From Sinohyriopsis cumingii (Eukaryota > Mollusca > Bivalvia > Unionida > Unionidae), in contig CM068825.1 in assembly GCA_028554795.2 (NCBI GenBank), positions 94,598,451 to 94,662,450 of the forward strand: DNA of 64,000 bases, in the 5' to 3' direction. Both the position numbers and the translations under genes were made by a program. Shown piece by piece: positions 9,188 to 64,000 of the stretch. The notes beneath the pieces were generated by a model, which was not told the origin of the DNA, did not search any database, and worked only from the letters and a program-made list of their open reading frames with translations. The stretch's first letter is position 1. Every line of letters begins with the position of its first letter.

Positions 9188-11822
9188 AGCTGGATTAGTA
9201 ATGTAGCTTGAAACTTTACCCATCTCACAAAGTTACCTGTATCCAAACATTTTAACAACTGGAGAAAACACTTAAACAATGTGCATATCGCGCGTGCCAT
9301 AACCCATCTTGACCGGGTCAATCGATTTAGATTGCTCGTCAGAACAGTTTCGTCTTCAGTTATGGTAGATTCATTGTAAAATGCAGATAGGTCTCTACAA
9401 CTAGTATACAGGTATATTTTTGAAGTAAATATAACCCTGTTTTTATCTCAGCTGGCCAAGAGAACTTAGGTCAAGTCCTGCGCCCGTCGTTCCTGGGAGA
9501 AAATGTATGATTAGCATAAACTGTGTGCATTGTTGCAATTAAGGATGAGAATTTCTTAACGCGGTTATAAATATGTGTTTCAAAATAATTGTGTCTTTAT
9601 TTTCTAATATTGCTTTGACCATAGCATCCACATTGAATTTATTATTATCGCAAAAAACTTCTCCTGAACAGAAAGTCATATTTATATAAGTTTTTTGCCT
9701 AAATCATTTTTATTGATATCCTCTTTACCCTATGACTGCTTCTCCTGAATAGAGAGCCATCGTGTTTCCACGCGAATAGTTCTTATGATATTTTATTAGT
9801 CGTAAATGAAAATTGTGGCGATGTGATGTTTAATATAGCTTTCACTATAGCAAACTTGAAAATCTTGCTATCACTATTTCCTCGAATGAATGCTTCTCAC
9901 AACATTGAGATTTTACTTTAAAAAGATCTTCTTATAATGTTATTGATCCATAACTAAAATGATGCTGATGTTACAGATTCGGATTTGGACCCATCTGTTC
10001 TTGTGTGGCACATATCAGTCAGACGAGTGATTTGAGGCCCATTTAGGTCGCTTATTACTACATGATAAAGTCGCTCTGATACTATGTAATGTAGAGGTTG
10101 GAAGTCTTAACAACATTGTTATTATGTACGCTGAATTTATTTTGTTATTCAGGTAGATCTAGATAAAAATTGATATCGTATGAAATGATCAGTAACCTCA
10201 GAGACTAACCCATGTAATCTGTACAGTGGAGGGATTTTGCGGCATAATAATCTTGAATTGTGCTCTGTCGAAGGCATCCTTTTTCTCTGTCATTAAGGGT
10301 GAACATTACTGGAAGGTTGTACAAGTTTCGTCCACGTTACGATTATATTACTTTCACTTACTCGTGCATAAAATTAATATTTTCGAAAGTAAAAGATGCA
10401 ATGCGAGTTCTTATTTATTATATTAGTCTTGGGGGGTCGGGGCAGATTGCCACCGGACGCCAGGCGACGAAGGGCACCTTCAGGAGACTCTTTCTAAGCT
10501 GACCTTTTCATAGCATTTGCACTCGCCTTAGCGTAACGAGTGCAACTCTTGACAAAACTTATATGGGGTGGGGGAGGTTGGCAACTGGCATAAATCTGTT
10601 ATTTGTCATAAGGTAGTGACACCACTAAATAACACTGCTTCCGGGCGCCTCTGTAGGGGTGCCAGTATGGAACATTGCCCCCGGGCGCATCGAATTTAAC
10701 CTAAGTAAATGTTGTACTCCATATTTAAGAACTCCATTTGTACACGGTTTCTCAGTGGTTGCAATGTAGCGGTTTACCGTTTTTAGATAGCATTTAACCA
10801 GTGTTGTTGGAGTTAAAATAATTCCAGTTAACCTTTGTATAACAGCGGTAGACCTATGTTTTATAATGCTGAACCAGTTATTTTTTTGCGGTTAGCGATT
10901 AATGACTGTTTTCAAGCGACGAACCGTTGATTCTTTTCGTACACAATATATTAATGTAGATCTCATGTTACTCATTTATGGTGATTTTATAAACTAAATG
11001 AGTAAAATGTGTTAACAATGAAAGGTGACGGTTGTATATGTGATTTCTCTGAAGATGCAAATAAGACATTTCTTGACAGATCACGTGCTTCAGGCTTTTC
11101 AAATCTTCAGGTTACGGTATCTTTGTTGTCAACATTTCAATTCGAGTGCGTACTCAGTTCCAAACTTGTCCTCTTTTTTCCATACATATGGACAAAACTC
11201 CTAAAAGTACAAAAAACATTTTATAACTCTTTCAAAGCCATGAATTGCATCTAAGCCATAACATTTAAAAGTTGTTTAATTAAATCGCGTTCCTATGAAA
11301 CGATTGTGTCCACGTGTCCGTCGCCTAAAAGAAAATGGGGCTTGTAAATATTGTAAATATTAAGTTGGTAAGAGTATCTAGGCATTTATGAATTTGTGTT
11401 ATTAAAATGAAGAAATTACCCCAATCGTTTCTGGTTAAATGGCTGTCTTTCGATCCTAGCATATAACCTGATTGCTGAATTTTAAAAAAATATATTATTC
11501 TGTGTACAACGGCTTGTAAACAACTCTACTCAGCTCTGATCAATTAACTTACACGCTTAACTGTTCTGCAGACTAATATAAACACTTACACATGATTTAA
11601 TCGAATGAACATTTTCTCTAGTCCCATGGTATGACTTTTTGCATTATCTACTAGAAACTTAAAGGAATACCATATTAATGTTAGCTCAAGCAAATGTTAT
11701 TGGCATGTTGAGTGCCAACACTTGAACGCAACGAATAAACGAACTGTATTACTATGTTTTCTCATTATCCCCGTAATGAAAGAGACTCATGATATGAGCG
11801 GGCAGTTATTTATTACTTTCAG

Positions 11823-12176
11823 GAAAATGGCAATAACGACGAAATTTTGAATTCTTTGAAGTATGTTCGTCCTGGTAATGGTTTTGAACCCGCCTTTCCA
11901 ATAATGGAGAAATGTGAAGTCAATGGCAGCAACTCCCACCCACTATTCCAGTTTCTGAGGGACAAACTTCCATTGCCAAGTGACGATCCAGTATCACTGA
12001 TGACTCATACCAAAAATATCATTTGGGAGCCAGTCACACGGACGGATATTTCCTGGAACTTCGAAAAATTCCTTATTGCTCCTGATGGCATGCCATACAA
12101 GCGTTACAGCAAACAATTTCAAACAATTAATATTCAGCATGATATTAAAGGACTTATTCAAAAGTTTGGTTTGTAA
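11823..12176 (+). CDS. Selenocysteine glutathione peroxidase, exon 2
   Basis: This exon follows a pyrimidine-rich AG acceptor and encodes residues 79-195, ending in TAA at 12174-12176. It continues directly from [10 protein letters not shown] to ENGNNDEIL. It supplies the other two members of the Sec-Gln-Trp-Asn active-site tetrad in WNFEKFL (Trp156, Asn157). The loop [16 protein letters not shown] is the insertion typical of tetrameric GPx1/GPx2-type enzymes and is missing from GPx4-like monomers, so I favour the GPx1/2 class. The total length of 195 residues is normal for the family. The ATG at 11847-11849 is in a different, meaningless context for translation start; the true start is in exon 1. 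Confidence 0.95.
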
Positions 12177-12290
12177 CTATCGTATACTGTAAATTATGTG
12201 ACCTGTCTGATCTAACATTTACATAGCTTGCTATAACAATACATCCAATTAAGACTGCACTATGACTGCAGATGATCAGCGACAGTGTAA

Positions 12291-12362
12291 CACTCTTGAG
12301 TCTATGATTGTAAACCCTTAAACCAGTATTCTGTCTGGGTTTGCTTGATGCTTCCTCAAGGA
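12291..12362 (+). promoter_or_regulatory. SECIS element in the GPx 3' UTR
   Basis: The hallmark pieces are in order. An outer helix CTTGAG (12295-12300) pairs with CTCAAG (12355-12360). The non-Watson-Crick quartet is ATGA (12304-12307) with TGAT (12346-12349). An inner stem pairs GTAAACCC with GGGTTTGC. The apical loop carries the unpaired AA of TTAAACC. This recodes the TGA of exon 1 as selenocysteine. It lies about 115 bases after the stop codon. Confidence 0.88.
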
Positions 12363-24607: not shown

Positions 24608-24654
24608 GCTGTTAGTAGTGAAGTGGGATACTATAGCTTCAAGGGGGCTTTAAT

Positions 24655-24965
24655 GTTAAAATAGGGTATATCGAATATAGCGACAAGGGGAATTTAACAT
24701 GGGGAAATTTAACAGGGAGTGAATGGGGAATGGAACATAGCGACAAGGGATTGAGCCACTCTAGGGACAAGGGGGATTTACCATTACAAACAGGGTATTT
24801 CCACTCTGGGGACAAGGGAATTGAACATGGGGAATTTGAACAGGGATTGGCCTGTAGAGCGACAAGGGGAATTAGCATTACAGAATCCCCATATCGAATA
24901 TAGCGTCAAGGGAAATTGAACATGGTGGGACTGTCTAGGGACAATGGAAATTGAACAGGGGAAAT
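24655..24965. repeat. Degenerate tandem repeat in the left arm (mirrored at about 25875-26190)
   Basis: Variants of the phrases GCGACAAGGGGAATT and AACATGGGGAATT recur many times. The mirrored arm carries the same array in reverse complement. Frames reading PLSLYSI-type repeats are translations of this array. Confidence 0.8.
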
Positions 24966-25091
24966 GGAGAAAACACAGACAAGAGACAAGAGACATTTGT
25001 TTTTTTTAAAAATTAGGCATGAAAGTCAATTTCTTGTCGTGACCTGTGAATGACCCTGAAAAGGGCCTTTGGGTTTCTTCTTCTTCTTCTT

Positions 25092-25406
25092 CTATTTCCT
25101 CCACTTCTTCAGCCATCCCCTTATCTTTCCCACTATTCCTTTCTTCTTCTTCTCCTTCTTTTCCGTCTCTGGCATCCAGTCAGGATGGCCCATCGCTCTA
25201 AATTTCTCTTGGATCTTGATCCAGTTGTTATTCAATTGGTCAAACTCCAATTTCGTCTTTCTATTCTCTTCTTCCTTTCTTTCTTTTGACCATTTTTCTT
25301 TGATCTTCTTTACCTCTACCTCCATCACTTTCCTCATTAATTCCTCTCCTTTCTTCAGTATGTCCAGGCCTCTCTGCACATAAGAATACTCGGGCCCATA
25401 CAACAT
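25092..25406 (-). CDS. Small charged coiled-coil protein inside the foldback element
   Basis: A 104-residue frame with an ATG in the central spacer and a stop inside the left arm. It is extremely rich in Lys and Glu, with a predicted long helix or coiled coil (ELMRKVMEVEVKKIKEKW, residues about 22-39). It has a PDWMPE motif near residue 75 and a lysine-rich C-terminus. I do not recognise the family. The mirrored arm holds a second copy broken by a deletion, so the two face away from a shared centre. It may be a DNA-binding or capture protein of a parent element, but that is speculation. A simple-sequence origin cannot be excluded because the composition is biased to A and G. Confidence 0.5.
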   Translation of the reverse strand: MLYGPEYSYVQRGLDILKKGEELMRKVMEVEVKKIKEKWSKERKEEENRKTKLEFDQLNNNWIKIQEKFRAMGHPDWMPETEKKEKKKKGIVGKIRGWLKKWRK

Positions 25407-25517
25407 ATCTTCAGGAAAGCACCTGACTTTGCTTGCGTTCTTATATGAAAAGCACAGACGTGAAGGAAAACATCCCCTACTTTTCTCTTCTCATATTATA
25501 TACTATTGCATTACAAA

Positions 25518-25752
25518 GAGGAATTAATGAGAAAAGTGATGGAGGTAGAGGTAAAGAAGATCAAAGAAAAATGGTCAAAAGAAAGAAAGGAAGAAGAGAA
25601 TAAAAAGACGAAATTGGAACTGGATCAAGATCCAAGAGAAATTTAGAGCGATGGACCATCCTGACTGGATGCCAGAGACGGAAAAGAAGGAGAAGAAGAA
25701 GAAAGGAATAGTGGGAAAGATAAGGGGATGGCTGAAGAAGTGGAGGAAATAG
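25518..25752 (+). pseudogene. Mirror copy of the coiled-coil ORF, broken
   Basis: The reverse complement of this arm matches the frame at 25092-25406 almost base for base. A deletion of about 19 bp between the KTKLEL and lysine-rich parts shifts the frame and brings in an early stop. This deletion also explains the small length difference between the two arms. Confidence 0.75.
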
Positions 25753-26750
25753 AAGAAGAAGAAGAAACCCGAAGGCCCTTTTCAGGGCCATTCATAGGTC
25801 ACGAATAGAAATTGACTTTCATGCCTAATTTAAAAAAAAACAATAAATGTCTCTTGTCTCTTGTCTGTGTTCTCTCCATTTCCCCTGTTCAATTTCCATT
25901 GTCCCTAGACAGTCCCACCATGTTCAATTTCCCTTGACGCTATATTCGATATGGGGATTCTGTAATGCTAATTCCCCTTGTCGCTCTTCAGGCCAATCCC
26001 TGTTCAAATTCCCCATGTTCAATTCCCTTGTCCCCAGAGTGGAAATACCCTGTTTGTAATGGTAAATCCCCCTTGTCCCTAGAGTGGCCCAATCCCTTGT
26101 CGCTATGTTCCATTCCCCATTCACTCCCTGTTAAATTTCCCCATGTTAAATTCCCCTTGTCGCTATATTCGATATACCCTATTTTAACATTAAAGCCCCC
26201 TTGAAGCTATAGTATCCCACTTCACTACTGCTGTTTTTACTGTCTGAAATACTGAATTTACTTACCACGACTCTTTCCAAAAATCGTATACATCTGAAAG
26301 TAAATATACAAAATTACCATGGCGGTATATTTTTAAATAATAAGTAGACTTTTCAAACGCTCTTATAATTATAGAAGCCAGGTGAACTCAAAGTAACGTA
26401 GTACAACAATAGATCACAAACTGTCCTAACTTTTAAGGTCACTTTTAAAGGACTGAATAATGTTAAATTTGAAATATGGAAAACAATACATTATTAAGGA
26501 ATAACCTTTTGTTCAAAGGTGTGCGTCATGCTAAAGTGATAAATAAAGTTGTTGGAAAAATTCTGATAGAAATAACTTCCTAATGTCTGTGAATAGTTAT
26601 TTTTCTATTTCTTCATTGTTTTCATCTTTCACTTCTTCTCCTGCATTTTCTTCTTCTTCTACCATCTTGACCGAAAGGATATTAGATTATTGCATTTTTA
26701 TCACGTTGTTATTCATAATTATTCAATACTGATTTTAATATCTGTATCAT

Positions 26751-27977
26751 TATTATATGCTCATTTTTTCTCCGTTAACTTTACATTGTCAGAATCGTTC
26801 AGTATTTTACGATATTGCACACCTTCATATTGTATTCACGTGCATAAAGAAACCACTTTCTATTGTAAACAAACAATGGACGCAGACGCCAGCACTTTTG
26901 ATTTGTAAACAAATCATGTACACTCGAGTAGTAGGCGCTTTACGTTTTGGTTGATGAAATTTGTTTGTGAATGAACTAAAGCAGATGTTTCGTGGACTGC
27001 CACATACCAGCTGCTTTGGCACATTCCGCGTTAACCTTTCTGATACAATTTTTCGGATTTAGGCTAGCTATACAGTAGACACCAGACAGTGACAAGGCAT
27101 AAACTTGTCTTCTTTAGCTGGTAATAAGAATGGCAAAAAATATACTTACATTTTTACATCCTGAATTTCTTCAAAATGTACTTTCTTAGTTCTACAAATC
27201 CAAATTATATGAGCCATGTCATAGGTTCTCAATCTTGATTACACATTACGAAATTGTACTAAAATTTCGAATATATTCCAAGTCCAATTACATATTCCTT
27301 ACTTCACTAAAAATGAAATAAGCATTAAATTCCATAGTGTCTTTTTGATAATTGCAATTGAAAGACTTCATATATTTACCACATTATGATTTCAAACATT
27401 CAATGACAGAAACAGAAATACATTTGCAGATGTCAACACGCTTCTCCCTCGCTTCTTCAATCCTATGTATTTCATGTGGAATTGTCGTATATAAATCCAG
27501 TCCGTAATCACAAAGTTTCGTAGAATCGATTTTTTTTTTACCAAACTCTATTCATTCCAGATCAAATGGAAAAGTTGTTGCAATGCGCATTCATTCAAAA
27601 TATGACTCCAAATTTAAATTTTAACTAGACACGCCATTTTCTTTCGAAAGTTATGTCGAGCGCGCGACTAAGTTCAAATTTATCTGGGCGGAGTTATGTG
27701 CGCATTAATAATGTTGTTGTGTAATGATGATTCTGCGGTTGTGTATTTTTTTAAATACGGCATACATTCGTTACATTTTTTCTTGTAGTGTATTTCTGTT
27801 TATATAATTAAGCCTTATGTAGAATAAGAATATGAGCATATAATAAAAAGGTTACTGCATTTGTATGGGAAAATATGAACTCGTTTTGTCGGATGGATAT
27901 AATGCACTCCCAAGGTCGTGAAGTATTTCCATCCGAAAAACTCGTTCATATTTTCCTACAAATGCAGTAACCTATAA
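26751..27977. repeat. 1.2-kb interspersed repeat, copy 1, ending in a hairpin
   Basis: Collinear with 38021-39270 over the whole length at roughly 85-90% by eye. Shared landmarks are TTGTAAACAAACAATGGACG, GTTTCGTGGACTGCCACATA, GGCTAGCTATACA and AGCCATGTCATAGGTTCTC. It ends in a hairpin at about 27849-27973 whose arms start GGTTACTGCATTTG and end CAAATGCAGTAACC. Frames inside differ in stops between copies, so I do not call a gene. Confidence 0.85.
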
Positions 27978-38020: not shown

Positions 38021-39270
38021 TATTATATGTCCATTTGTTTTCTCTGTTAACTTTACATTATCAGAATCGTTCAGTATTACCCGATAATGAACTCGCGCGC
38101 CAATACACATATAGCATTCACGTGCATAAAGGAACTACTTACTTTCTATTGTAAACAAACAATGGACGCAGACACCAGCACTTTTGATTTGCAAACAAAT
38201 CATGTACACTCGCGTAAGAGGCGCTTTACGTTGTGCTTGTTTAAATATGTTTCTGAATGAACTAAAACGGATGTTTCGTGGACTGCCACATACCAGCTGC
38301 TTTGGCACATTCCGCGTTAAATTTGTTGATACAATGTTTCGAATTTAGGCTAGCTATACAACAGAGGCAAGAATGGGTCCTCACAAATAACATACCAGTG
38401 ACAAGGCATATACTGTCTTCTTTAGCTGGTGATAAGAATGGCAAAAAAATATACTTACAGTTTTAAATCCTGAATTTCCTCAAAATGTACTTTCTTAGTT
38501 CTGCAAAGAGCCATGTCATAGGTTCTCAATCTTGATTACACATTTCGAAATTGTACTGTAATTTCGATGATAAGTGCAATTACATACTCCTTACTGCACT
38601 CAAAATGAAATAAGCATTAAATTCCATAGCGTCTATTTTATAATTGCAATTGAAAGACTTCATATTTTCCCACATTATGATTTCAAACATTCAGTGACAG
38701 AAACAGAAACACATTTGTAGATGTCAACATGCTTCTCCCTCTCTTCTTCAATCCCATGTATTTCATGTGGAATTGTCCCATATAAATCCGGTCCATAATC
38801 ACGAAATTTCGTAGAATCGAAAAAAATACCAAAATCTATTGATTCCACATCAAATGGAAAAGTTGTTACAATGCGCATTCGTTCACAATATGACTCCGAA
38901 TTTCATTTTTAACTAGACACGTCATTTTCTTTCGAAAGTTATGTCGGGCGCGCGACTAAGTTCAAATTTATCTGGGCGGAGTTATGTGCGCAGTAATAAT
39001 GTTGTTGTCGTGTAATGATGAATATGCGCTTGTGTATTTAGTTTGGAATGCGGCATACATCCAGTTACTTAGTTTCGTGTAGTGTATTTTGTTAATATAA
39101 TTAAGCATTAGGTAGAGTAATTTTTTTGTGCATATAATAAAAAGGTTACTGCATTTGTATGGGAAAATACGAACTTGTTTTGTCGGATGGATATACTGCA
39201 CTCCCAAGATCATGCAATATTCCATCCGAAAAACTCGTTCATATTTTCCGTTACAAATGCAGTAACCTAT
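38021..39270. repeat. 1.2-kb interspersed repeat, copy 2, ending in a hairpin
   Basis: Collinear with 26751-27977, including the terminal hairpin (about 39145-39268) with arms GGTTACTGCATTTG and CAAATGCAGTAACC. On the minus strand this copy has a 67-codon frame at 38675-38878. The matching region of copy 1 has a stop and a frame change, so coding is not supported. Confidence 0.85.
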
Positions 39271-52510: not shown

Positions 52511-53029
52511 GGTATTGTCTTTTACTCTGGCGACTCCCACTTGGGCTGCTGGAGTCGCTACTATGACGTCACATCCCGAAAGTAACCGAATAGGCGCGGA
52601 CATTTTGCATACGAGGTCACGGAAATTCAGCTCCTAGAAGATAGGCCAATATTTAAATATTGGCATTACGGTCGCAGATGATACTTCAGAATAAGGTTTT
52701 CTGCTATAGTACTTTTATTATTATTCTATATTTCCATTCGTTTCTGGTCTCCTTTAAAATGAAAATGGAGATGTGATGGAGCAGCAGGGAGATCGAACAA
52801 GCTCTAAATGGTTCACTCTCCGTTTCGCAAAATAAGCCTTTCTGGAAATCGCAAGAACAAATCACGATTGTCTCAGTATCCGGTATGAGACAACCCTGTC
52901 AACGAACTTAATAAACTCTAATTGACTTACCCAGCCTAATCGTTGATAAGTTTTTCTGATCGCGAAAAATCGCAGCGATCGCGTCGGTGCCAAGTTGGAA
53001 GCAGCACCCTCTCTGCTGCTATAAATTAA
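52511..53029. other. Left flank of the virus-like block; boundary not resolved
   Basis: No gene is seen. The change from host-like repeats to compact coding DNA happens here. A GC-rich patch with repeated GATCGCG lies at about 52960-52985. I cannot identify a terminal inverted repeat or target duplication because the far end is outside the window. Confidence 0.4.
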
Positions 53030-53830
53030 ATCATTATTATATCAATAATTGCAAACATCGGAGAACCATATTCCGCTAGATTAGCTCGAGAGCGATTAGA
53101 GGCAATAAATAAATATATACCATTGAGAGATGCTGTCAAAGAAAAACTGCAAGCAAGACAAGAAGCACAAGTTGAATACGCAGAAGGTACAGAACAGTTA
53201 TTTAAACCCGTTACAAAGGTTACTGAAAAAGTCGTAACGGCTATTAAGGAGGATCTTCTTCCAGTATCAAAACAGACTGCTAAACAAACTGAAAAAATAA
53301 CAGCGAGAACTAAAAAAACAAAAACGATTTTACGAGATCTTCCAACTGATATAGCTGCAGCTCAACCTCCTCCCGTCGATGAAGAAATGCTTGAAGGTAT
53401 TGGCAAAAATAGTACTGAAGTCGCCGACGTGAAAAAAGAACTTGCACCTAAACAAATAAGAGAAAATATCAAACTGATTGCAAGATTTAAGGAAGGTTTT
53501 GTCGAAGATATTAGAAATACTAAAGAACATGATTATTCCAACAAAATATTAAGTAGTATGTTAAATAAATCTAGTATTTTAAAACCCGGTTTTGAAAAAG
53601 TAAGCGATGATAATCTTATTAAATGGATATATCGTATATATAAAAACAAAAAACAAGCCAGAGATGATGGTTTAGAATACAGAAGTCTTTTTGAAGGAAT
53701 AGAGAGACTTTATAAAGAGAGAGTGAAACAAATAGAACAACAATTCTCCCAGCAGAAACCTTCTTATCAACTTCCTCCACCGCAGCAACAGATAAACAAC
53801 AACAGTTTTCTTCACCGCAGCAAAAGTTGA
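53030..53830 (+). CDS. Coiled-coil protein at the left end of the virus-like block, 5' incomplete
   Basis: An open frame runs from just after a stop at 53027-53029 to TGA at 53828-53830, but has no ATG near its start. TTG at 53123 is only a candidate. The product is lysine- and glutamine-rich with predicted helices (EAQVEYAEGTEQLF, then SKQTAKQTEKITARTKKTK). It has a conserved-looking central part (KWIYRIYKNKKQARDDGLEY) and a PPPQQQ-rich end. No enzymatic motif is seen. It lies directly upstream of the capsid-like gene, so a minor virion or scaffolding role is a guess. The missing start suggests 5' truncation or an upstream exon or promoter that was lost. Confidence 0.6.
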   Translation: MIIISIIANIGEPYSARLARERLEAINKYIPLRDAVKEKLQARQEAQVEYAEGTEQLFKPVTKVTEKVVTAIKEDLLPVSKQTAKQTEKITARTKKTKTILRDLPTDIAAAQPPPVDEEMLEGIGKNSTEVADVKKELAPKQIRENIKLIARFKEGFVEDIRNTKEHDYSNKILSSMLNKSSILKPGFEKVSDDNLIKWIYRIYKNKKQARDDGLEYRSLFEGIERLYKERVKQIEQQFSQQKPSYQLPPPQQQINNNSFLHRSKS

Positions 53831-54170
53831 TACAGGAACTTAAAAAATCAAAAGAAGAAAGATCACCCTTAAGACTATTTAAGAAAAGCACGGAAACAAC
53901 AGAGGAGGGAGCAACCGGAAGTGGTTTGGGAAGTGGTCTTGTTTGTTCAAACAATATTCTCGGCATTCTTGGCAATTAAAGATATATTAGCAAGATTAAT
54001 ACGACGAAAACCACCACCAGTAAAATTACCCATTATTGAAGTTATGCCCGAAAATGTCAGTAAAATAATAAATCAAGCTGCAAATCAAAAACTAGCAGCT
54101 TGATGAATCAAGGGACTGAACAAATAAATACAAGTCTGATATCAGGAAGTGGTCTTCGTTTTAGACGATA
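53831..54170 (+). pseudogene. Possible C-terminal remnant of the upstream protein
   Basis: After the TGA at 53828 coding potential continues in other frames: a TGSGLGSGL glycine-rich piece, a 60-codon frame (53921-54103) with PPPVKLPIIEVMPE, and a last frame ending GSGLRFRR then TAA near 54170. It could be the broken C-terminus of the preceding protein or a small separate gene with a hydrophobic VVLFVQTIFSAFLA segment. Assignment is uncertain. Confidence 0.4.
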
Positions 54171-54185
54171 ACAAATTATAATAAA

Positions 54186-55587
54186 ATGTATAAACGTGAA
54201 TCCGACACAGCGTTTGACATAGACGAACCGGTTCTTAAAAATGAATCAGTGCGTGATTTTCAGTATTATTCTTATGACGCACGAAATCGAAATTAGCAAG
54301 GACGAATTGAATTACAGGTTTAAGATACAAGCAGATATTTCTTACCCGCTGAAGCATTTATTGAAGTAGAAGGTGAAATTATAAAAACAGATGATACAGA
54401 ATACAGAGATAATGTTAAAGTCGGTTTTGTTAGTAATGGAATTATGGTCTTGTTTGAAAGTGCTACGTATATGATTGACGGAAAAAATTGAATCAATTGA
54501 AAATAATGTTGATGTAGCTACAACAATAATAGGTTTGGCAAGATATTCTGATGATTATACAAGATCAGCTGGTCCATCAATGATGTTTGCTGAGGACACT
54601 TCTGATTTTCCTAACAATGATCAGTACAACATAAGACGACCAAGAAACAATGCCAACAACGTTGACGCTGACGTATGGCCGGTGGTTCATGGTGCTAATA
54701 CAGAATTTAATTTAGGATTTACAACGCGTAAATTAATGTTCAGTGCTCATCGTAGAAGATTTTCATGTGCAATTTCGTTGTCACACATATTTGGATTTTG
54801 TAGAGATGTTAGAAAAGTAATTTTTGGAGCAAGACATACAGTTGTGCTTTTTAGAAAAGCTACTAACGAAGATGTTATCTGGCGACCTGTGGGTGATGCT
54901 GGTAAAGTAATACTAACAAAACTTTCGTTATGGATGCCGGTAATGACTCCGGCAATTGCTGAAGAACAGCGATTACTTTATTTTATGAATCAAGGTGGTA
55001 AATCGTTGTTATCATGGTTTACAGTAACCACGGATATTGTTCAAAGTAGAATTAATGGTTTATTCACATGGCATATAGCATCGCAGCAGGGAGTTTCTGC
55101 ACCACGACATATTTTCATTGCTTTTCAAGATACTGCACGTTTAAACTCACAAACACGGAGTCATATGATATTTGATAAACTTGGTGTTTCTGAAGTTTCC
55201 TTAAGAATAAACGGACATCAATAACCATCTGAGATTATACTGTTAGATTTTAATACAAATCATGTTGCACGTGTATATCATCGTTTGACGAAATATCTAG
55301 GACATGATCTAAATATAGATACTGGCTTACAAATATCACAATTAGATTTTGCAACATATTATCCAATCTATTACTTTTCACTGGAACATCTTGATTTAGT
55401 TGGACAATCTGTCGTTGATATACACTTTCGAGCTAATGTAACAGCCCCTCCTATTGAAGGTGCTGGTCCACCAGTTGTTTATAGAGATTACAGAGCAATC
55501 GCAGTTATCCTCAGCGATAAAGCAATGTTACTTGAAGGTGTTGGTGGGCGAATGAGAGTTATTGATGCACCAGTAGAAAACATGTAG
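54186..55587 (+). pseudogene. Major-capsid-like protein, interrupted
   Basis: This is the longest structural gene of the block, about 467 codons if read through its breaks. The ATG at 54186 starts a frame with nonsense codons near 54297 and 54324. A frame change near 54475 follows, and an in-frame TAA at 55222-55224 splits off the last part, which ends TAG at 55585-55587. Visible conserved-looking motifs are SHIFGFCRDVRKVIFGARHT, GKVILTKLSLWMP and HIFIAFQDTA. I associate this pattern with the hexon-like (double jelly-roll) capsid protein of Polinton-like elements and adintoviruses found in many animal genomes. The link is family recollection, not a computed match. Its position between a coiled-coil gene and the core, protease and penton genes supports it. 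Confidence 0.6.
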
Positions 55588-55610
55588 ACAATAGACCAAC
55601 CGCGTTAATT

Positions 55611-56060
55611 ATGAAAATGTCATATAGTCACGTTAATGTCATTCTGACTCCCGGTCAAGTGAAAAAATTACAATCAAAAAGAGCGAGCGCATGCGGGACA
55701 AAAGTAACATTGAAGCGAGATCAAATTGCTAGTGGTGGTCCAAACAAGTTATCGTTGACTAGAACTAAACTAAAACATTTCAATAAAGCGCGAGAAGCAA
55801 AAACCGGAGTTCAACTTGATTTCGCTCCAAGTGCCATCAAAGACATGATTAAAACCGGTGGTATATTTCCACCTCTCGCAGCAATACCAGCATTAATTGC
55901 TGCTGATGCTCCAGCTGTTGCAAAAGCAGCCGCGTTAGGTGCTGTTGGAAACGCTGCTGGAATGGCATTAAAGAAAGCAACTGGAAAAGGTTATATAAAA
56001 AAAGGAGCGGGTCTTAGACTTCCAGGAAATCCGCCCTCATGGTACCCAAAACGTTTTTAA
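55611..56060 (+). CDS. Small virion-core-like protein, intact
   Basis: An open 149-codon frame with ATG at 55611 (a second in-frame ATG at 55617) and TAA at 56058-56060. The N-terminal half is basic (TKVTLKRDQIASGG, LTRTKLKHFNKAREAKTGVQ). The middle is a hydrophobic alanine-rich helix (LAAIPALIAADAPAVAKAAA). The end has GKGYIKKGAGLRLPG. A basic start, an amphipathic helix and a GKG-type tail resemble the pX/pVI-like minor virion proteins encoded by adintovirus- and Polinton-type elements, which are cleaved by the viral protease. That assignment is inference. It lies between the capsid-like and protease genes and is free of breaks. Confidence 0.6.
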   Translation: MKMSYSHVNVILTPGQVKKLQSKRASACGTKVTLKRDQIASGGPNKLSLTRTKLKHFNKAREAKTGVQLDFAPSAIKDMIKTGGIFPPLAAIPALIAADAPAVAKAAALGAVGNAAGMALKKATGKGYIKKGAGLRLPGNPPSWYPKRF

Positions 56061-56077
56061 CACAGAGTATTTCACCG

Positions 56078-56425
56078 ATGTCAAATTTTGATTTATTCGA
56101 TGCTGCTATGCAACTTAAAATAAAAAATTTCAGAGGTGTTTTTATGCGAGATCAGTTACCGAGCCAACCGAATACCAAAGAAGCAGGAATTATTAATCTT
56201 GATAACACCGATGGTCCAGGAACTCATTGGGTTGCTTACGCGATTGATCCACGTGGAATTGTTTATTTCGATTCGTATGGGTTAGCACCTCCAGTTGAAT
56301 TTCTAAAGTACATCAACGGATTTCAAATTCCAGTTTGGTACTTAACGCTACCAACACAAACATTAACCGATCCACCAATATGTGGCCGTGAAGTAATTAC
56401 TGTACTTGACGCGTTATCAAAATGA
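56078..56425 (+). CDS. Adenain-like cysteine protease (C5/Ulp1 fold), C-terminus disturbed
   Basis: The ATG at 56078 gives a 115-codon frame. Catalytic features of the adenovirus-type maturation protease are visible in order: GTHWVAYAID with the His, YFDSYGLAPP with the Asp, and PPICGREVI with the nucleophilic Cys. Such proteases cleave capsid precursors and are a hallmark of Polintons, adintoviruses and adenoviruses. After DALSK the frame stops at TGA. An alternative frame continues with related-looking sequence (RYQNEPNHLTKSC), so the C-terminal end is probably frameshifted. The usual Gln of the oxyanion hole before the Cys is not obvious. The class call is confident; activity is doubtful. 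Confidence 0.82.
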   Translation: MSNFDLFDAAMQLKIKNFRGVFMRDQLPSQPNTKEAGIINLDNTDGPGTHWVAYAIDPRGIVYFDSYGLAPPVEFLKYINGFQIPVWYLTLPTQTLTDPPICGREVITVLDALSK

Positions 56426-56512
56426 ACCAAACCACCTCACAAAGTCGTGCTCGAGTACACCCCAAACAGGTTTGTTAACTCATCGTCGTTTTAAACAACC
56501 CTTAAAAATAAT

Positions 56513-57534
56513 ATGGTTGATATTTACGGGAGATATCTCAGCAAGGGTAAAGACAAAAAACGCGATGATATTGATTTATCAAAATATGCGACAAAAGACG
56601 ATCTTAATGATCTCGTGAATCTCTCTGGGATTGACCGAGATGAAGTTATTGTTTTTCAGGACCGATATGGTATGTTAAAAACCAGCAATATCAAATGGAA
56701 TGACATAGTTCGACGAGTACTCGGTGCGGTCACGGATAATATCCCTGTGTTTATTGACAGCGGAAAAATCAGAGACTAAAGTATATCATTTACAACCATT
56801 AGAGATGAAATCACAAAAAGTGTTGCTAATCGTTTAAAATCAACTGTCGATACAATGAGAGGTGAACTCAACATGAACGGAAATAAAATAGTAGCCGTAA
56901 CAGATCCAACATCTGATGAAGACGCGGCAACAAAAAAATATGTTGACGTTAACTACAGCACCGTTGATGGTAAATTATCCACGTTGAGGGCCGAGTATGA
57001 TGTTCACGTAAGCGCGTTTACAAATCTCCGTAGGAACTTTAGAAAAATTAATGAAACCGCAGAGGAATTCTTTGGTACTCCTCTCACCGCTGACGCAAAA
57101 CTCTCTATCAAAAAACATTGGATACGATTAAGAAAACACTAGAAGATGTCGTAAGTGGAATTCCTGAAATCGTTAACAAAATTAGTCTAATTAAAATCCC
57201 ACCCGGAGTAACTCCGGGGCATATTACTAACATAGTATACACAGTATCATCTGGATTCGCAACATGGTCAGAGCAAAATAAAACTCTCAAACATACCGCA
57301 TCAGTCACTGGTGTGTACAGGCTGTCTGTGTTCCGTGCTGCAAAATTTGAGATATTTACAACGTATCCCTGGCGGCATTCAACCGACAAGTTTTCTGGGG
57401 TTTTGTCTGTCATATTAAATAAAGGAACCGAAGAAACATTTATAATGGAAGCAGCTGATAAGAAATTAACCGCAGCATCTTACTGGTGGTGTCTGGAATT
57501 TGTTGTTGAAACACCTGAGTTGGGTACTGCGTAA
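56513..57534 (+). pseudogene. Fibre-like protein with phage tail-fibre motif, interrupted
   Basis: The ATG at 56513 opens a frame with a TAA at 56777-56779. The same frame then resumes, and a frame change near 57115 leads to a last segment ending at 57534. The central part contains MRGELNMNGNKIVAVTDPTS followed by EDAATKKYVDV. This pattern is classically found in the N-terminal repeat of phage tail-fibre and collar proteins. The N-terminal part is charged and helical (SKYATKDDLNDLV). The C-terminal part is beta-rich (VYRLSVFRAAKFEIFTTYPW) and ends in the hydrophobic ASYWWCLEFVVETPE. By position, next to protease and penton-like genes, it may be the receptor-binding fibre of the virion. This is inference from a motif. 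Confidence 0.62.
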
Positions 57535-57542
57535 AATAATAA

Positions 57543-58079
57543 TGGCGTTGACGGCGTCAACTACAACATTAAATGTTCAACAATATAGATACGAAATAGT
57601 ACGCGAATGGCAATCAGAGTTGAAAACCATCATTGGCCAGTATACGTTGAAAGTAAAAGAAATACAAGCGACGTGTAGATGTTTTGGATATTGTGGTTTA
57701 TTCGGTATCTGCGTTAGTTGCGTCCACCGGGGTAGTATTATCAGCGCTAACGCCAGTAACAAGTGCAGTAGCAGTAACAATATGCGTTTCATCATCAGCG
57801 GCTGTTGCAGGTGTTTTTAATATTATCGCGATAAAGATATCAACGTTCACGAGCACAAAATCAACGACTATGTTCTGAAATTAAACACGGCAACAACAGC
57901 ATATTTTAAATTATCGTCGCTGATATCATCAAGCCTCGACGATACAACGATATCAGATTCCGAATTAATGGTTAAGATATACGATGAAGTAAACCACCAT
58001 TTGAAAGAAAATAAAAATAATAATGACAGAACTACTTCAGCAGGTAGCCGCAAATACAACTCCGGCAAGAACAAGATGA
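57543..58079 (+). pseudogene. Predicted membrane protein, interrupted by frameshifts
   Basis: The frame from ATG 57543 begins MALTASTTTLNVQQYRYEI with a helical charged segment. It then changes frame near 57675 to a strongly hydrophobic stretch (SALVASTGVVLSALTPVTSA, then VAVTICVSSSAAVAGVFNII) suited to two membrane helices. It changes again near 57830 to a charged helical end. A terminal piece QQVAANTTPARTR overlaps the next start by a few bases (ATGA). No family is recognised. Small membrane proteins are common in this class of virus-like elements. Confidence 0.5.
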
Positions 58080-59421
58080 TAACAGTAAGCTCAACCAAGC
58101 CTGAATTCAGTATTAATTTTCCAACTGCGATTCCGGTAAGCGAGATCGCGTTAGCACAGTTGCGAGTATACCATAGCTGGCCAAATATTAGATCAAAATC
58201 ATTTGGTGGATTACCAGCAAAGAATTCGTTTGTGTTTGCAAATAAAAATAAACCAGATGGTACACCCGACTGGACTTTTGTTGGAATACCAACCGGGTGC
58301 TATCAAATCGAAGAAATCAATGAGGAATTACAGCGCAGAATAAAAAATATCACAGGAAGGGAATCCAAGATAACAATAACAGCCCATAAACTCTCCCGAT
58401 TACGCCTTGGATATATATCAGTTATCGATTAGAACAGTGTTAGGATAGCTTGAAATTCCATCTGAAGTATCACCACCGTTACCAGAACCAAAAAAGTCTG
58501 ATTATACCACGGACAAGCAATTATACCACGAAATTACTCTATCATACAAACAACATTTACTTGACATAAAAAATGCAACGTTGGGTAGTAATTTTGGCTT
58601 CTATAGCGAAGACAATATACAGTGTTATTTTACTTATGAACGAATTCCCAGAGGAGGAGCTAAGTCTGTGCTTATTCGCCTAGATCAAATTATTGAATAC
58701 TTTAAATTTATTAATCAAGAACATAAACGACAACGAGGGCGACTACAGCAAAGTTTCCAAGAACATCTTTTTGATATAGCAAGTTCACGCAGTGAACACA
58801 TTAAACAAATAGAAACATTAAATCAGCTTGTATCCGACATGGAATATATTAACCAGCGAGTAACTGAGGTAATAATTGATTACACTGATGACATAAATCT
58901 CTATAAACAAAGATTTTTAACTGCATATTCGATAACAGAAGCTGAACTGCTAAATTTTAAATTTCCCGTGTATAACGCAACCGAGTTAAAAAATAACATC
59001 CACCGAGAAAATCATCGATGAGTTCTTTTCTGAAATACTTGAACAATGGAGAAAAACACTACCGTTACCAACTATTCTCCGATACAACAATAATCCACAC
59101 GGAGAAGGCCGCCACGTATCTCCGGAAATCGTAAATATAACCCAGGTGGTCGCGGTCAATCTTGTGTGTGATGTAATTGATTGAAGTTACAGCACAGACA
59201 CAACAATATCAAATCAAGCGCAGCAAGGATTTATTCTTTATTCGTTCACACCGAAAGCACCACCAGGATATCTGACTGTACAAGAGCCGATCAATCCGGT
59301 CTATCTACGATGTCATAATCCACTATTATCAAGAATACATTTCAAACTAACTAAGCAATCCGGGCATTTGCTGGATTTAAGGCATGAGACGATAAGTATA
59401 AATTTATATGTAAAATCCTAA
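58076..59421 (+). pseudogene. Penton-like capsid protein region, interrupted
   Basis: The ATG at 58076 starts a 119-codon open segment: FSINFPTAIPVSEIALAQLR, YHSWPNIRSKSFGG, GIPTGCYQIEEINEELQRRI. The frame ends at TAG 58430. Coding resumes in another frame at about 58449 and runs to 59021, with EDNIQCYFTYERIPRGG and a long helical part (QETL-like, DYTDDINLYKQRFLTAYSI). A third frame to 59421 carries GRHVSPEIVNITQVVAVNL, a TGA at 59182-59184, and a hydrophobic end (LYSFTPKAPPGYLTVQEP). The first and last parts resemble the two ends of a minor capsid (penton-type) protein of Polinton-like elements. Whether the helical middle is an insertion or a second gene is unclear. Confidence 0.5.
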
Positions 59422-60037
59422 AAATCTACGATTTTCAAGGATTTCCAATCGTGAAAAATCTACGATTTCAACAGTACCAAAAAGAAAAATAATTATCCGT
59501 TCTTGATAAAATCAGCAAGGTGGATTGACAAATAATCAGATCCAAACTATCATTCAGATTTCAGTAAAATATTATAAGAATCTTTTTATATACTGAAAAT
59601 CAGGCTGATTTCTCAATTCTGATAGGGTAATAGGTCGTCAAAATCGTGTAAATCGACTGATTTCTCAACTGTGATAGGGTAATAGGTAGTCAAAATCGTG
59701 TAAATTTAACAAATTTCAGTAAAAAATAAATTTGTTATAATATTTTTGTAATTCTGATTACACTGACAGATTTCAGTAAAATATTATAAGAAATTTATTT
59801 GTTACTGAAAATCTGTCAAATTTGTTAATTCTGAATGGTAATAAGGTGGTCAAATCGTGTAAATCGACTGATTTGTTAATTTTCATAGGGTAATAGGTAG
59901 TCAAAATCGTGTAAATCGACTGATTACACAAAAAACACATTTTACTGAAAATTGGTCAGTGGTGAAGGACAAGGAAAAAAAATAATCCTCCTGACAGAGT
60001 CAGGGACATACTTTCATTTTTATTTCCATGAATGTGT
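59422..60037. repeat. Intergenic tandem and hairpin repeats between convergent genes
   Basis: About 600 bp without coding. The phrase TAGGGTAATAGGTAGTCAAA with following TCGTGTAAAT(C)GACTGATTT occurs about four times (near 59624, 59680, 59840 and 59888). Between them, pairs such as ATTTCAGTAAAATATTATAAG and ACTGAAAAT can fold into hairpins. The site separates the + strand structural genes from the - strand cluster. It could act as a transcription terminator, replication element or recombination hotspot; the sequence does not decide. Confidence 0.75.
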
Positions 60038-60404
60038 CTAACTTTCGTTTTCATTTCTGGATATAATCTTTCTTAGTTGCCTCACGCGAGAATTAATTGT
60101 CTTTTTTGCCTCATATTCCCGAGATAATTCTGATCTAATGTTTTCAATGGCCCGAGAGAGACTGACAGATTCCTTTATTCTTTCTTCTTCTACTGTAGCC
60201 AGCGATTGACACATAGCTGTCTGAATTTTCTTTACGAGTCTGTACTCAGATGGCAGCGTGTATGCTCCGTCCTCTTTTCTTTCCTGCAGTGTCTCAAAAT
60301 CAGAAATAAATTTTTTCAGGATTTAGTTCATCAGATAAATTTATGCCGTCGCGCTCTAATTTTTTAATAGCAGAAATTAGACCGTTAATATTTTCGTAAT
60401 TCAT
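60038..60404 (-). pseudogene. Small coiled-coil protein, one frameshift
   Basis: On the minus strand, ATG at 60404-60402 starts MNYENINGLISAIKKLERDG and runs to the DELNPEK region. Coding then continues in another frame (TLQERKEDGAYTLPSEYRLV, REYEAKKTINSRVRQL) to TAG at 60040-60038. It is highly charged and helical, with about 120 codons in all. No family is recognised. Confidence 0.5.
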
Positions 60405-60710
60405 TATACAGTATATTATATATTTAAAAGAAAAATATTTTACACCATTATGTGAACTTCTAGGTTGCCCATCTACCAATGCGCCACGGAACCTTGTATT
60501 GATATATGTTTGAGAAATTATTATATAGTTACTTTTGGATTGCAAGAAAATAATGCAGTTACTTTTGGATTGGAAAAAAATAATACAACTTGAATTTAGT
60601 TCTACTTAACAAATCAGAATTATTTATTTTCTGGATAATATATAATACCTATAAATGATGTGCATTGTCCAATCTTCTAAAAGTCAGCGGAGAGAACTCT
60701 ATACTTTTTT
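60405..60710. other. Intergenic AT-rich gap with a tRNA-like fragment and a direct repeat
   Basis: It contains two copies of AGTTACTTTTGGATTG (near 60528 and 60557). On the minus strand, GGCGCATTGGTAG within TTCCGTGGCGCATTGGTAGA resembles a tRNA A-box half, but no B-box or acceptor stem follows. The upstream AT-rich stretch may be the promoter of the small coiled-coil gene. Confidence 0.4.
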
Positions 60711-61244
60711 TTACACAATCGCGGCAGAGTTGTCTCCGTTATCTGCATCTAACACTATTGGGACATAAGAGAATGAAATCCGATTTTTATACTTTTGAGA
60801 AAAAGACGATTTGTATATTTTTTCTGCGACTTTTTGTACTGAAGGTATGCATATGTCAAAATACTTGCCAGCCGCTTTCATTGATTGAAATATTATTTCT
60901 TCGCCGATTTCTGTATTTAAAGATTTAACGACTCTAGGAACTTTTTTACATCTTCCAGTACTTCCTAATATACAATTCTCGCTCTGCTTGATAGCTTGCA
61001 AGTTAAATAAATTATTATTAAGTTTTTGTCCATCAATATGATCGATCACAAGACCATCTTTGTAAAAAACCTCAAATACAAACCTGTGATTGTAATAAAT
61101 TTTTCTCCCAGCTTTAAATTTAAGATAACCAGTATTATTAACTACACCAACTGGTTTCTTCAGCCGACAGTGTCTAATTGTACCATCACAAGATGCTTCA
61201 TAATTCTTGATGATTGGATTTGGGACAAATTCTTTTTGCTCCAT
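60711..61244 (-). CDS. HNH endonuclease with NUMOD-like DNA-binding tail, intact
   Basis: A full-length 177-codon frame. The N-terminal part has the NUMOD4-like EASCDGTIRHCRLKKP. The nuclease core is NHRFVFEVFYKDG, then LVIDHIDGQKLNNNLFNLQA, then KQSEN, the HNH-type zinc-free nuclease pattern with the His of the HRxV block and DHIDG. The C-terminal part contains QSMKAAGKYFDICIPSVQ, which fits a NUMOD1-type helix-turn-helix. Such proteins are homing endonucleases and are common in large DNA viruses and phages. It starts 12 bases after the zinc-cluster gene, in the same operon-like minus-strand cluster. It is unbroken while many neighbours are not. Confidence 0.87.
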   Translation of the reverse strand: MEQKEFVPNPIIKNYEASCDGTIRHCRLKKPVGVVNNTGYLKFKAGRKIYYNHRFVFEVFYKDGLVIDHIDGQKLNNNLFNLQAIKQSENCILGSTGRCKKVPRVVKSLNTEIGEEIIFQSMKAAGKYFDICIPSVQKVAEKIYKSSFSQKYKNRISFSYVPIVLDADNGDNSAAIV

Positions 61245-61256
61245 TTATATGTAATA

Positions 61257-61586
61257 TTATTTGTCTAAATTATAATTTTTCTTCAAATGTGGATATATAG
61301 TCTTCAGAGTTTTTATAACCTTATCAATGACCTTGACTCTGTCAAGGGTGTTATTATTTTTGTCATAATAACGTTTTAACTCGCTATATCTCTTACCATC
61401 ACAACGCGCGCACAGCTGTGTTTTCCTTTTAACTCCAACACCACATCTTAAACAGGGTTGTGGACCAAGACTTCCTCGTCGTACACTTCGCAAATGTTGA
61501 CCGCAGAATTCATTTACGCAGGATTTGTTACAAGGAATTGAAGATCCTACCATCAGCCATTTGCACTGATTTTGTAATTGAGTCAT
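61257..61586 (-). CDS. Small cysteine-rich (zinc-binding) protein, intact
   Basis: A 109-codon open frame. Cysteine/histidine-rich segments are CKWLMVGSSIPCNKSC, CGQHL and CLRCGVGVKRKTQLCARC. These could form two or more zinc sites (CxxC and CX(n)C spacing). The C-terminal third is a basic helix (VIDKVIKTLKTIYPHLKK). No enzymatic motif is visible. A DNA- or RNA-binding regulatory role is possible but unproven. It reads divergently from the polymerase gene at 61630, sharing an AT-rich 43-base spacer. Confidence 0.65.
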   Translation of the reverse strand: MTQLQNQCKWLMVGSSIPCNKSCVNEFCGQHLRSVRRGSLGPQPCLRCGVGVKRKTQLCARCDGKRYSELKRYYDKNNNTLDRVKVIDKVIKTLKTIYPHLKKNYNLDK

Positions 61587-61629
61587 TATATAAAATATTC
61601 TTTATTTAAATACTTGTCTGAAATATAAT
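61587..61629. promoter_or_regulatory. Divergent AT-rich promoter region
   Basis: The 43-base gap between two divergent start codons (minus-strand gene start at 61586, plus-strand start at 61630) is almost pure A/T and contains TATATAAAATATT. It is a likely bidirectional promoter; this is inferred from arrangement. Confidence 0.5.
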
Positions 61630-64000
61630 ATGGAAGAGTTTGAGATATTATCCATAATCAAGCCTTGGAAAACTTCCAGATTCGATCTTGACATACTAAC
61701 TCCTGACTTACGGAGACGAGCTCTGACTGATCTGATTAATATTATCAGGGATGCTAAAAAAGAATTTCGTGATGATGGAACGTCTCACACATGGCCTACA
61801 TTCAAAATTATACGCAACACCAGAGGTGTCGACTCTGTCAAGGACAAAGTCATCGACAAAGGTGTGGACGAAGTTATTGATGCTACAATGAACGATACGC
61901 GGGCGAAAACGATTATCGATTATATCAACGATCAGAAATATTTTTTCAGAATGAAGTTTATTGTGCTAGCAGATTCCGCTACGTGGATAATTGTGACAAA
62001 CGTGACCCTGTCCTTGCTAATGGAAAAACCGTTTTGTTAAGTAAAAATTCCAAGCCAGGAAAGCTGAGTGGTATTGACAGACCATATTATGTTCAAGCGT
62101 ATCCTGTGACCGAAGTTGTTTATGGAATTTATCAGCTAAATGATAAATCCAACATCAATGATCTTGCACCAATTAGATTTTCAAGGTTGAATTGTGTAGC
62201 CGAACGAGTAATTGAGCATTTTACAAATGCGAAGCGTGGAAATGGGTTAACTAATCAGCGACATGAAAAAATAAACAAATGGGTCGAATCGGTTAAAGAT
62301 ACCGGAGCTACAATAAATGATGTTGCCGAGTTATCAAGTAAATTAAAATTTCCAATAATAGTAAAAACGTTAACCGGAGAAGTTTTATATGAATCAAAGA
62401 ACAAGGGAAACGGAACTCCTATTGAAATTATTGATCATAATGCTCACGCCTGGACTAGCGCAGTAACACTATTTCCACGGAATCGTACTGTAAAATTTTG
62501 CCCCTCAGAAATTATGTTTCATTTTATTTAAGCGTTAAGTAAAAACGATCCTGTGTCAGTGTGGTTATTTAAAAGTTCTGATGAAGAATATGATCAATTG
62601 GTAAGACCCACCGGCGATTTATATCGTCGAGAATCTCTTGATGAAACAATGAGAAAACTCGCGAAAAGATTTTCAACAGAACACATTAACGAGTTGCTCT
62701 GCAACTGTTTCACAGTTCCGTCAGTCGCAGATCATTTTGCCAGAGAGAAAAATTCGTGGAAACCAACACGAATTCGATGTCTCGGGGATGTTCAAGCTAG
62801 TTGTGTCTAATACGGGCATGGCGGTTTGTGGAATACTAGGTATGATCGTGACGGTATGATATCCGTTGACATGATCGCGTGTTATCCGGGGAGTTTTCTT
62901 GGTTACGGAGAATGTCATAGATATTTTGCGCGGTTTGGACATCCCATGAACGAGATGCCAAGAGTTGCCATAAACGGACCGTTACCCGATTTTGATCTAA
63001 CTGGATTTGCTCGTGTTTCTTCATTCGAATTCTCCAGTGATCTTCATCCGGTTTGTTATGTTTGGTTTGGCAGACATTTTTCAGAAAAACGCTGGGCGCC
63101 AATAGTATTATTACGATATATGCTTGACAGTAAAATATTAATATCGCTGACGTCAGCGAAGCAATTATATAATATCGGACACAAACTAAAGTTTGGTTAC
63201 CAACGTCACAGCGTATCAGTCTTGATGAGGTCATCGAAGAATATAAGCGTGAATGTCCAAATGTTCCTATTGATGTCATCGTTAATAATGCTTCTAATAT
63301 TCTTAAGATTAAACTCGGTAACAGCGAAAATACTGCAAAGGATCTCGTAGAAAAATAATCGGTAAATTTACTCAGGGTGGCGTATATGATCATAAACGGC
63401 ATTGTGCAAGATTAATTATGAATCCCGAATAAATATGAATTTGTGGTCGCTGATGCAGCAGCGAAAAATATATTTTGTAATGGGGAAGACGCTTACTTAT
63501 CAGAGTTGCCACGGATTCATTTTATATCGATAAAAAATATTTAGAATTACTGGCTCGGTTTACGAGTACTGATGCATTATGGGGTTCGTGGAGAATAAAA
63601 GAAGAAACGTTACATAATTATTGTGAATCCGCGGATGTTGCGGTTAAAGATATTTATTATAGCAATCAGATATCAGAATTGTCGTCTGCGGCGTCCATGT
63701 ATGATCCAGTATCTAGATACAAAACCGTTTATTTAAGCGGTTCGGGAGGTTTTGGTAAGACAACAAGAGTTATTGAATTATTTCAACGGAATTGCGATGA
63801 CATGATTGTAATAACACCAATACATAGACTTGCAAGAGAAATGAAACAACGAGGAGTCAATTCTTGTACTTTTCACAGCTTTTTCAAATACAGCGGTGGC
63901 ACGTGGACTCCTGATCGAATGGGCGAGAAATATATTCCAGGTATCATCATTTGGTATGAGATCTGCACAGTGTCGCTAGATATATTAAAAATGTTTCTCG
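61630..64000 (+). pseudogene. B-family polymerase / SF1-like helicase fusion, interrupted and running off the window
   Basis: The ATG at 61630 starts a 136-codon open segment (MEEFEILSIIKPWK). Coding continues through frame changes and stops near 62030, 62531, 62810, 63200-63350 and 63500. The central part contains MISVDMIACYPGSFLGYGEC (62856 onward), a match to motif A of B-family DNA polymerases (the Asp with the following YP), then RVAINGPLPDFDLTGFARVS. The last open stretch, 63505-64000, has a Walker A (SGSGGFGKTT), then VITPIHRLAREMKQRGV and TFHSFFKYSGG. This order fits an SF1-type helicase. At the motif II position the sequence is IIIWYEICTV, with Tyr where Asp is expected. A PolB palm followed by a helicase in one gene is unusual. 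The gene continues past 64000. Confidence 0.65.
63505..64000 (+). CDS. SF1-like helicase segment of the replication gene, 3' incomplete
   Basis: Within the interrupted replication gene this is the last open frame, continuing past the window edge. It carries Walker A at about 63736-63765, the threonine/histidine region VITPIHRL and the TFHSFF block, spaced as in RecD/Pif1-type SF1 helicases. Motif II appears degenerate (IIIWYE). It is listed separately because it is open at the window end and may be intact downstream. Confidence 0.6.

Follow-up and report, generated by a model that had tools for sequence, protein, structure and literature searches.

A decayed polinton-like virus, probably of Tlr1 type, integrated in the genome of the freshwater mussel Sinohyriopsis cumingii

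An integrated element at the edge of the window

The DNA analysed, here called the window, is a stretch of 64,000 nucleotides from Sinohyriopsis cumingii (assembly GCA_028554795.2, contig CM068825.1, positions 94,598,451 to 94,662,450 of the forward strand). An integrated element of 14,623 bases was found at window coordinates 52780 to 67402, its right end lying 3402 bases beyond the window edge in the adjoining sequence (locus L009). It is bounded by terminal inverted repeats (TIRs) of 243 and 227 bp which are 88.5% identical. The ends of the element, and the replicase gene on which its classification turns, are as follows.

52780..53022, no strand: left TIR, beginning AGCAGCAG
67176-67402 (L009:3176-3402): right TIR, partner of the left
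61630..64000, continuing to about L009:944, + strand: replicase gene, broken
62187-62210 (Cys) and 62427-62453 (His), + strand: vOTU-like motifs of the replicase, downstream of its N-terminal region
62868-62897, + strand: palm motif A of the replicase
63505-63531, + strand: palm motif C of the replicase, ATD
63739-63765, + strand: Walker A of the superfamily 1 (SF1) helicase of the replicase

The original prediction, made from the window alone, placed dense coding from about 53.0 kb onwards and regarded an integrase, a packaging ATPase and terminal repeats as not visible, suggesting that they be looked for past 64 kb. The density was borne out. Between 52 and 64 kb, open reading frames of at least 80 codons span fractions of 0.62, 0.73 and 0.96 in three successive 4-kb bins, far above the shuffled means of 0.13-0.18 (maximum 0.35) for those bins, with 20 dinucleotide-block shuffles per bin; the 13 bins on the left gave 0.07-0.43. 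The proposed start was not borne out, as the element begins at the left TIR. All three missing features proved to be present at the window edge or just outside it, and the genes found beyond the edge are as follows.

L009, beyond the window, - strand: rve integrase (PF00665, E 1.2e-6)
L009, beyond the window: DUF5679 protein (E 2e-12)
L009, beyond the window: A32-type packaging ATPase (Pox_A32, E 4.6e-13)

Both the integrase and the ATPase were matched in all six replicase-bearing loci, and the ATPase in all five of the sister copies described below, although in L014 and L020 it is split into two pieces.

The window copy was inserted long ago and has since been inactivated: it is dead, with stops and frame changes interrupting the genes for its capsid, fibre and replicase. 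Nothing was found in favour of the block being a group of host genes or a domesticated capsid gene, and such an origin is next to impossible given that the inverted repeats enclose a number of broken viral genes and that relatives occur throughout the genome. A host-gene origin was rejected on structure and decay.

The replicase

The window replicase is fragmented across all three forward frames. Its palm gave no Pfam match of its own and was assigned because of its motifs and its uninterrupted relatives, while the helicase piece matched AAA_19 at E 2.1e-4, under the cut-off. A scan for Walker A motifs from 44 to 64 kb returned the helicase as the sole match, the ATPase lying beyond the window. 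The polymerase and OTU motifs are named here according to general knowledge of these families combined with the descriptions in PMC11071308 and PMC12721341.

Five sister copies were taken from the same genome, selected for long replicase frames, so that intactness among them is overstated. In four of the five the replicase frame is uninterrupted, with lengths counted stop to stop of 1185 (L014), 1183 (L016), 1219 (L017) and 1144 codons (L020). The order of motifs in each long frame is OTU-type Cys, OTU-type His, palm motif A, Walker A and Walker B. Both OTU-type motifs are kept in all four, and 146-148 residues separate the OTU-type His from motif A throughout, a spacing which, judged by its length, leaves no room for an exonuclease between the vOTU-like motifs and the palm. 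Motif C reads VATDSFY, lacking the first Asp of DTD, in six of six frames, though these are not independent as the frames were selected for VATDSF, VAVDSF or DSFYI. SF1 helicase motifs lie downstream of the palm in the sister copies (Pfam AAA_19; weakly, PIF1 structures), and in a JGI protein, P0037, motif C, here reading AVD, shares a frame with the helicase Walker A. The helicase and PolB-like palm that had been predicted are thus both present but not as separate genes, since the sister copies hold them in one replicase frame. Nothing useful came from phmmer searches of the PDB with the helicase, vOTU and palm pieces, and the vOTU and palm pieces had no match in PHROGs or NCBIfam.

Structural and accessory genes

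The remaining genes of the window copy are as follows.

53030..53830, + strand: first gene, basic coiled-coil-like protein, 266 codons
54177..55587, + strand: major capsid protein gene, PF21738 double jelly roll
55566..56060, + strand: small basic protein with a hydrophobic glycine-rich C-terminus, adjoining the protease; matched in four of five sister copies
56018..56425, + strand: adenain-like cysteine protease (HW 56213-56248, FDSYG 56261-56293, CG 56369-56398)
56513..57534, + strand: fibre-like protein, phage tail-fibre similarity (PHROG 2710, E 9.3e-7)
57821..59421, + strand: candidate minor capsid (penton) region, three pieces
60711..61244, - strand: HNH endonuclease gene (PF13392, E 1.5e-7; PHROG 59)
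61257..61601, - strand: cysteine-rich (zinc-ribbon-like) small protein; matched in five of five sister copies, Pfam score under the cut-off

The capsid-like gene of the original prediction matched PF21738 (double jelly roll-like) at E 1.2e-11, and the jelly-roll fold, which was to be checked by structure prediction, was obtained as a double jelly roll in the model of a capsid relative. Fold matches of the capsid in BFVD include an adintovirus capsid; the capsid tree took in PF21738 relatives only. In the window copy this gene and the fibre-like gene have a frame change each, and they are further disrupted by in-frame stops in the former and a single stop in the latter. The adenain-type protease was likewise upheld, with its HW, FDSYG and CG motifs all within a single frame and a match in four of the five sister copies, while its profile matches were weak (Pfam C5, E 0.028, under the cut-off; African swine fever virus S273R, E 0.0011). 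The neighbouring small basic protein may have a core or minor capsid role. The first gene has near full-length matches of 60-61% identity in L013 and L019, and the outer two pieces (first and last) of the candidate penton region were matched in all five sister copies. The predicted HNH nuclease is also present and can be counted as part of the element, because its match adjoins the replicase in five of five sister copies.

AT-rich 52-bp tandem and inverted repeats were also observed within the element, at window 59555-59968, where they separate the capsid module from the HNH gene.

Sister copies and spread of the family

TIR pairs were found in three of the six copies examined. Besides the window copy, these are the copy spanning L013/L014 (16,326 bases; TIRs of 269 bp, 95.2% identical) and that spanning L019/L020 (16,138 bases; 271 bp, 97.4% identical). 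Their TIRs also begin AGCAGCAG and diverge from those of the window copy past the first bases. The two sister copies are flanked by the target duplications ATTGG and ATAAC, of 5 bp, or 6 bp if a T that is ambiguous with the repeat end is counted. The 6-bp duplication that had been anticipated was therefore seen, as 5-6 bp, in two of the three TIR-bearing copies and not at the window copy. Upstream of one sister copy, L015 contains parts of a further, more diverged copy (replicase frame of 550 codons, integrase frame of 318 codons), so insertions can sit side by side.

The whole assembly (2,904,868,851 bases in 1138 contigs) was searched with the palm piece and with PF21738. The palm piece gave at least 150 scored matches (of 20,800 first-look candidates) and PF21738 at least 126, all above the cut-off (of 15,190), where the scored matches are lower bounds and the first-look numbers are not copy counts. 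The PF21738 matches occur on every one of the contigs C1-C19, and a PF21738 search of 14 control genomes found none. Of the scored capsid matches, 122 of 126 have no internal stop and most frames are of about 455-465 codons, in a list that favours good copies. Neither the decay of the copy nor the spread of its family through the genome had been recognised in the original prediction. Named capsid relatives were found in the unionid mussels Sinanodonta woodiana and Potamilus streckersoni. A pattern scan of genome contigs returned 200 stretches and no relatives.

A further large expansion of PF21738 could be marked by P0055, a distant capsid cluster (33% identity) for which 705 member sequences and a contig of some 1.2 Mb are recorded.

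The host flank

The left flank contains a cadherin domain and an exon of a glutathione peroxidase, which matched PF00255 (E 1.5e-10) and, in the PDB, glutathione peroxidase 2 (E 6.5e-50). Since these flanking genes are animal, so is the host. The possibility that a free water-borne virus was joined to mussel sequence by contamination or misassembly was considered, as relatives exist that are up to 75% identical along the full query, many of them on short contigs. However, the host genes share the same 171-Mb contig with the element, the copy is decayed and its TIRs lie inside host sequence, and relatives are present on each of C1-C19 and on long contigs of other mussels. Such an artefact is extremely improbable.

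Other features of the flank were observed. At window 11793-12359 the C-terminal glutathione peroxidase exon is followed, about 120 bases downstream, by a SECIS element (12296-12359), and the two probably belong to a selenoprotein gene. Inverted repeats of 394 bp (99%), 828 bp apart and with further nested arms, occupy window 24614-26229 and mark a young transposable element, either foldback-like or small. About 1.1 kb of sequence is present twice, at window 26855-27927 and 38141-39221, the copies being 11.3 kb apart with 90-92% identity.

Comparison with known elements

Krupovic et al. (PMC11071308) describe a polinton-like virus (PLV) organisation TP-vOTU-PALM-S1H in which the first Asp of DTD is missing and endonucleases are C-terminal. 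The same order of palm then SF1 helicase is found in the Tlr1 element of Tetrahymena thermophila and in PLVs with Tlr1-like helicases (pPolB-S1H). Going by the descriptions in PMC11071308 and PMC12721341, the mussel element has in common with the Tlr1-type PLVs the vOTU-like motifs ahead of the palm, the absence of an exonuclease, the DTD motif without its first Asp, a possible endonuclease-like C-terminus, an rve integrase, an A32 ATPase and a double-jelly-roll capsid. It differs from Tlr1 in its mollusc host, adenain-like protease, fibre-like gene and PF21738 capsid and, going by the same descriptions, in a candidate HNH-like replicase end where Tlr1 has GIY-YIG.

With Polintons/Mavericks and adintoviruses the element shares an integrase, packaging ATPase, adenain-type protease, double-jelly-roll capsid, inverted repeats, short target duplication and residence in an animal germline. 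The element could thus be a canonical Polinton/Maverick or adintovirus that is merely degraded and once had an ordinary exonuclease-bearing pPolB. The TIRs starting with AG, the 5-6-bp duplications and the adintovirus capsid among the fold matches would suit this explanation, as would the annotation of Mavericks as a repeat class across surveyed mollusc genomes in PMC10294476. In the replicase, however, an SF1 helicase is fused to the palm, and an exonuclease would not fit; uninterrupted sister frames join palm and helicase in this way, with motif C reading ATD, and degradation of an ordinary polymerase is therefore very unlikely. The canonical assignment was rejected on replicase architecture.

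Among other systems, OmPLV of Oxyrrhis marina is likewise an endogenous PLV with a polymerase-SF1 helicase fusion, but it is described in PMC12721341 with the helicase at the N-terminus and the exonuclease retained, with a tyrosine recombinase, and without a recognisable protease. Virophages have the capsid fold in common with the mussel element, and transpovirons a Tlr1-like helicase (PMC11071308); both differ in gene set and in the animal genome that holds the element. The protist survey of Bellas et al. (PMC10120064) grouped animal capsids with Maverick-Polintons, cnidarians being the sole metazoan exception. Parts of the mussel family may already be labelled Maverick in repeat tables. No report of a Tlr1-type PLV from a mollusc was found in the literature searched, which left subscription papers mostly outside.

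Interpretation

The above results indicate that the block is very probably a decayed endogenous Tlr1-type PLV (Preplasmiviricota), one of a large and diverse family in the freshwater mussel genome. By its anatomy the element would be a Tlr1-type PLV because the order of vOTU-like motifs, palm and helicase, together with the lack of room for an exonuclease, is Tlr1-like and not that of a polinton or adintovirus polymerase. The TIRs, integrase, ATPase and double-jelly-roll capsid agree with the original proposal that a polinton-like DNA virus is endogenous in this invertebrate, and calling it related but distinct was also correct; the label adintovirus-like is not supported, given the replicase architecture.

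Several observations weigh against this assignment. The likeness to Tlr1 and to polintons is one of architecture, judged against published descriptions, and the selection of frames and copies described above bears on both the motif C count and the apparent intactness. The rve matches (E 1.2e-6 to 1.1e-7 across loci) score 29.2-32.5 bits, slightly below the Pfam cut-off of 32.6. The C-terminal HNH of the replicase gave a weak match under the cut-off in L016 (PF01844, E 0.017), none was reported in the Pfam scan of L014, and the L020 frame stops within this HNH-like part. A single-sequence model of the vOTU piece reached a pLDDT of 38.8 and the fold was not obtained. No target duplication was found flanking the window copy, and within the stretches fetched no TIR pair was found for three of the five sister copies. 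In the L015/L016 copy neither the first gene nor the core protein or protease was matched, and this copy looks incomplete; a capsid frame of at least 300 codons is present in just two of the five sister copies. Pattern scans of IMG/VR with capsid, helicase, vOTU and minor capsid protein pieces or alignments matched 3, 24, 5, 64, 29, 3 and 2 stretches, scan by scan, none of which was a relative. Finally, the single computable capsid pair of three gave a dN/dS of 0.86. Replicase dN/dS was 0.13-0.42 in the 11 of 15 pairs that could be computed, dS being saturated or undefined for the most diverged pairs. Taken with the capsid value, this fits past selection on functional elements followed by near-neutral drift after recent insertion.

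Some of these points would also be expected of a capsid-bearing transposon lineage that has ceased to make virions and spreads only within the germline of the mussel. The many chromosomal copies, the one measurable capsid ratio, the sampled copy without left-hand capsid genes, the scarcity of long capsid frames and the empty IMG/VR scans all lean that way. Against it, the great majority of scored capsid matches are free of stops, albeit in a list biased to good scores, and the sister copies keep the protease and core protein (four of five) and the ATPase (five of five). Loss of virion formation is thus unlikely, though by no means negligible. That living Tlr1-type PLVs infect freshwater mussels and are still colonising the germline, where several diverged lineages include young copies, is put forward tentatively, as somewhat less probable than not.

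The gene content and the integration footprints of a Tlr1-type PLV are present in the copies. Replication and spread of such a virus would proceed as follows. The N-terminal region of the replicase would prime DNA synthesis at the AGCAGC termini and the vOTU-like domain would cleave to release the primer. The palm would then copy the linear genome without proofreading while the fused helicase unwinds ahead of it. The ATPase would package the DNA into a protease-matured icosahedral double-jelly-roll capsid with a fibre, and virions would be formed. The integrase would insert the linear DNA, giving rise to the 5-6-bp duplication. Amplification in the germline may have occurred by repeated infection, by intracellular transposition or by both, which the data do not separate.

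Significance

The Tlr1-type replicase has so far been described mainly from protist viruses, and the animal host and genomic spread are the surprising parts of the present result. A mollusc family combining this replicase with a PF21738 capsid would extend the replicase type to animals and, if living viruses are indeed involved, would be an animal branch of a type known mainly from viruses of protists. No member of this capsid family was found in the IMG/VR scans, and virus surveys may therefore miss it. The family may explain some of the unclassified repeats of the 2.9-Gb bivalve genome, and its young and old copies form a natural series with which to ask if elements of this kind move as virions or as transposons.

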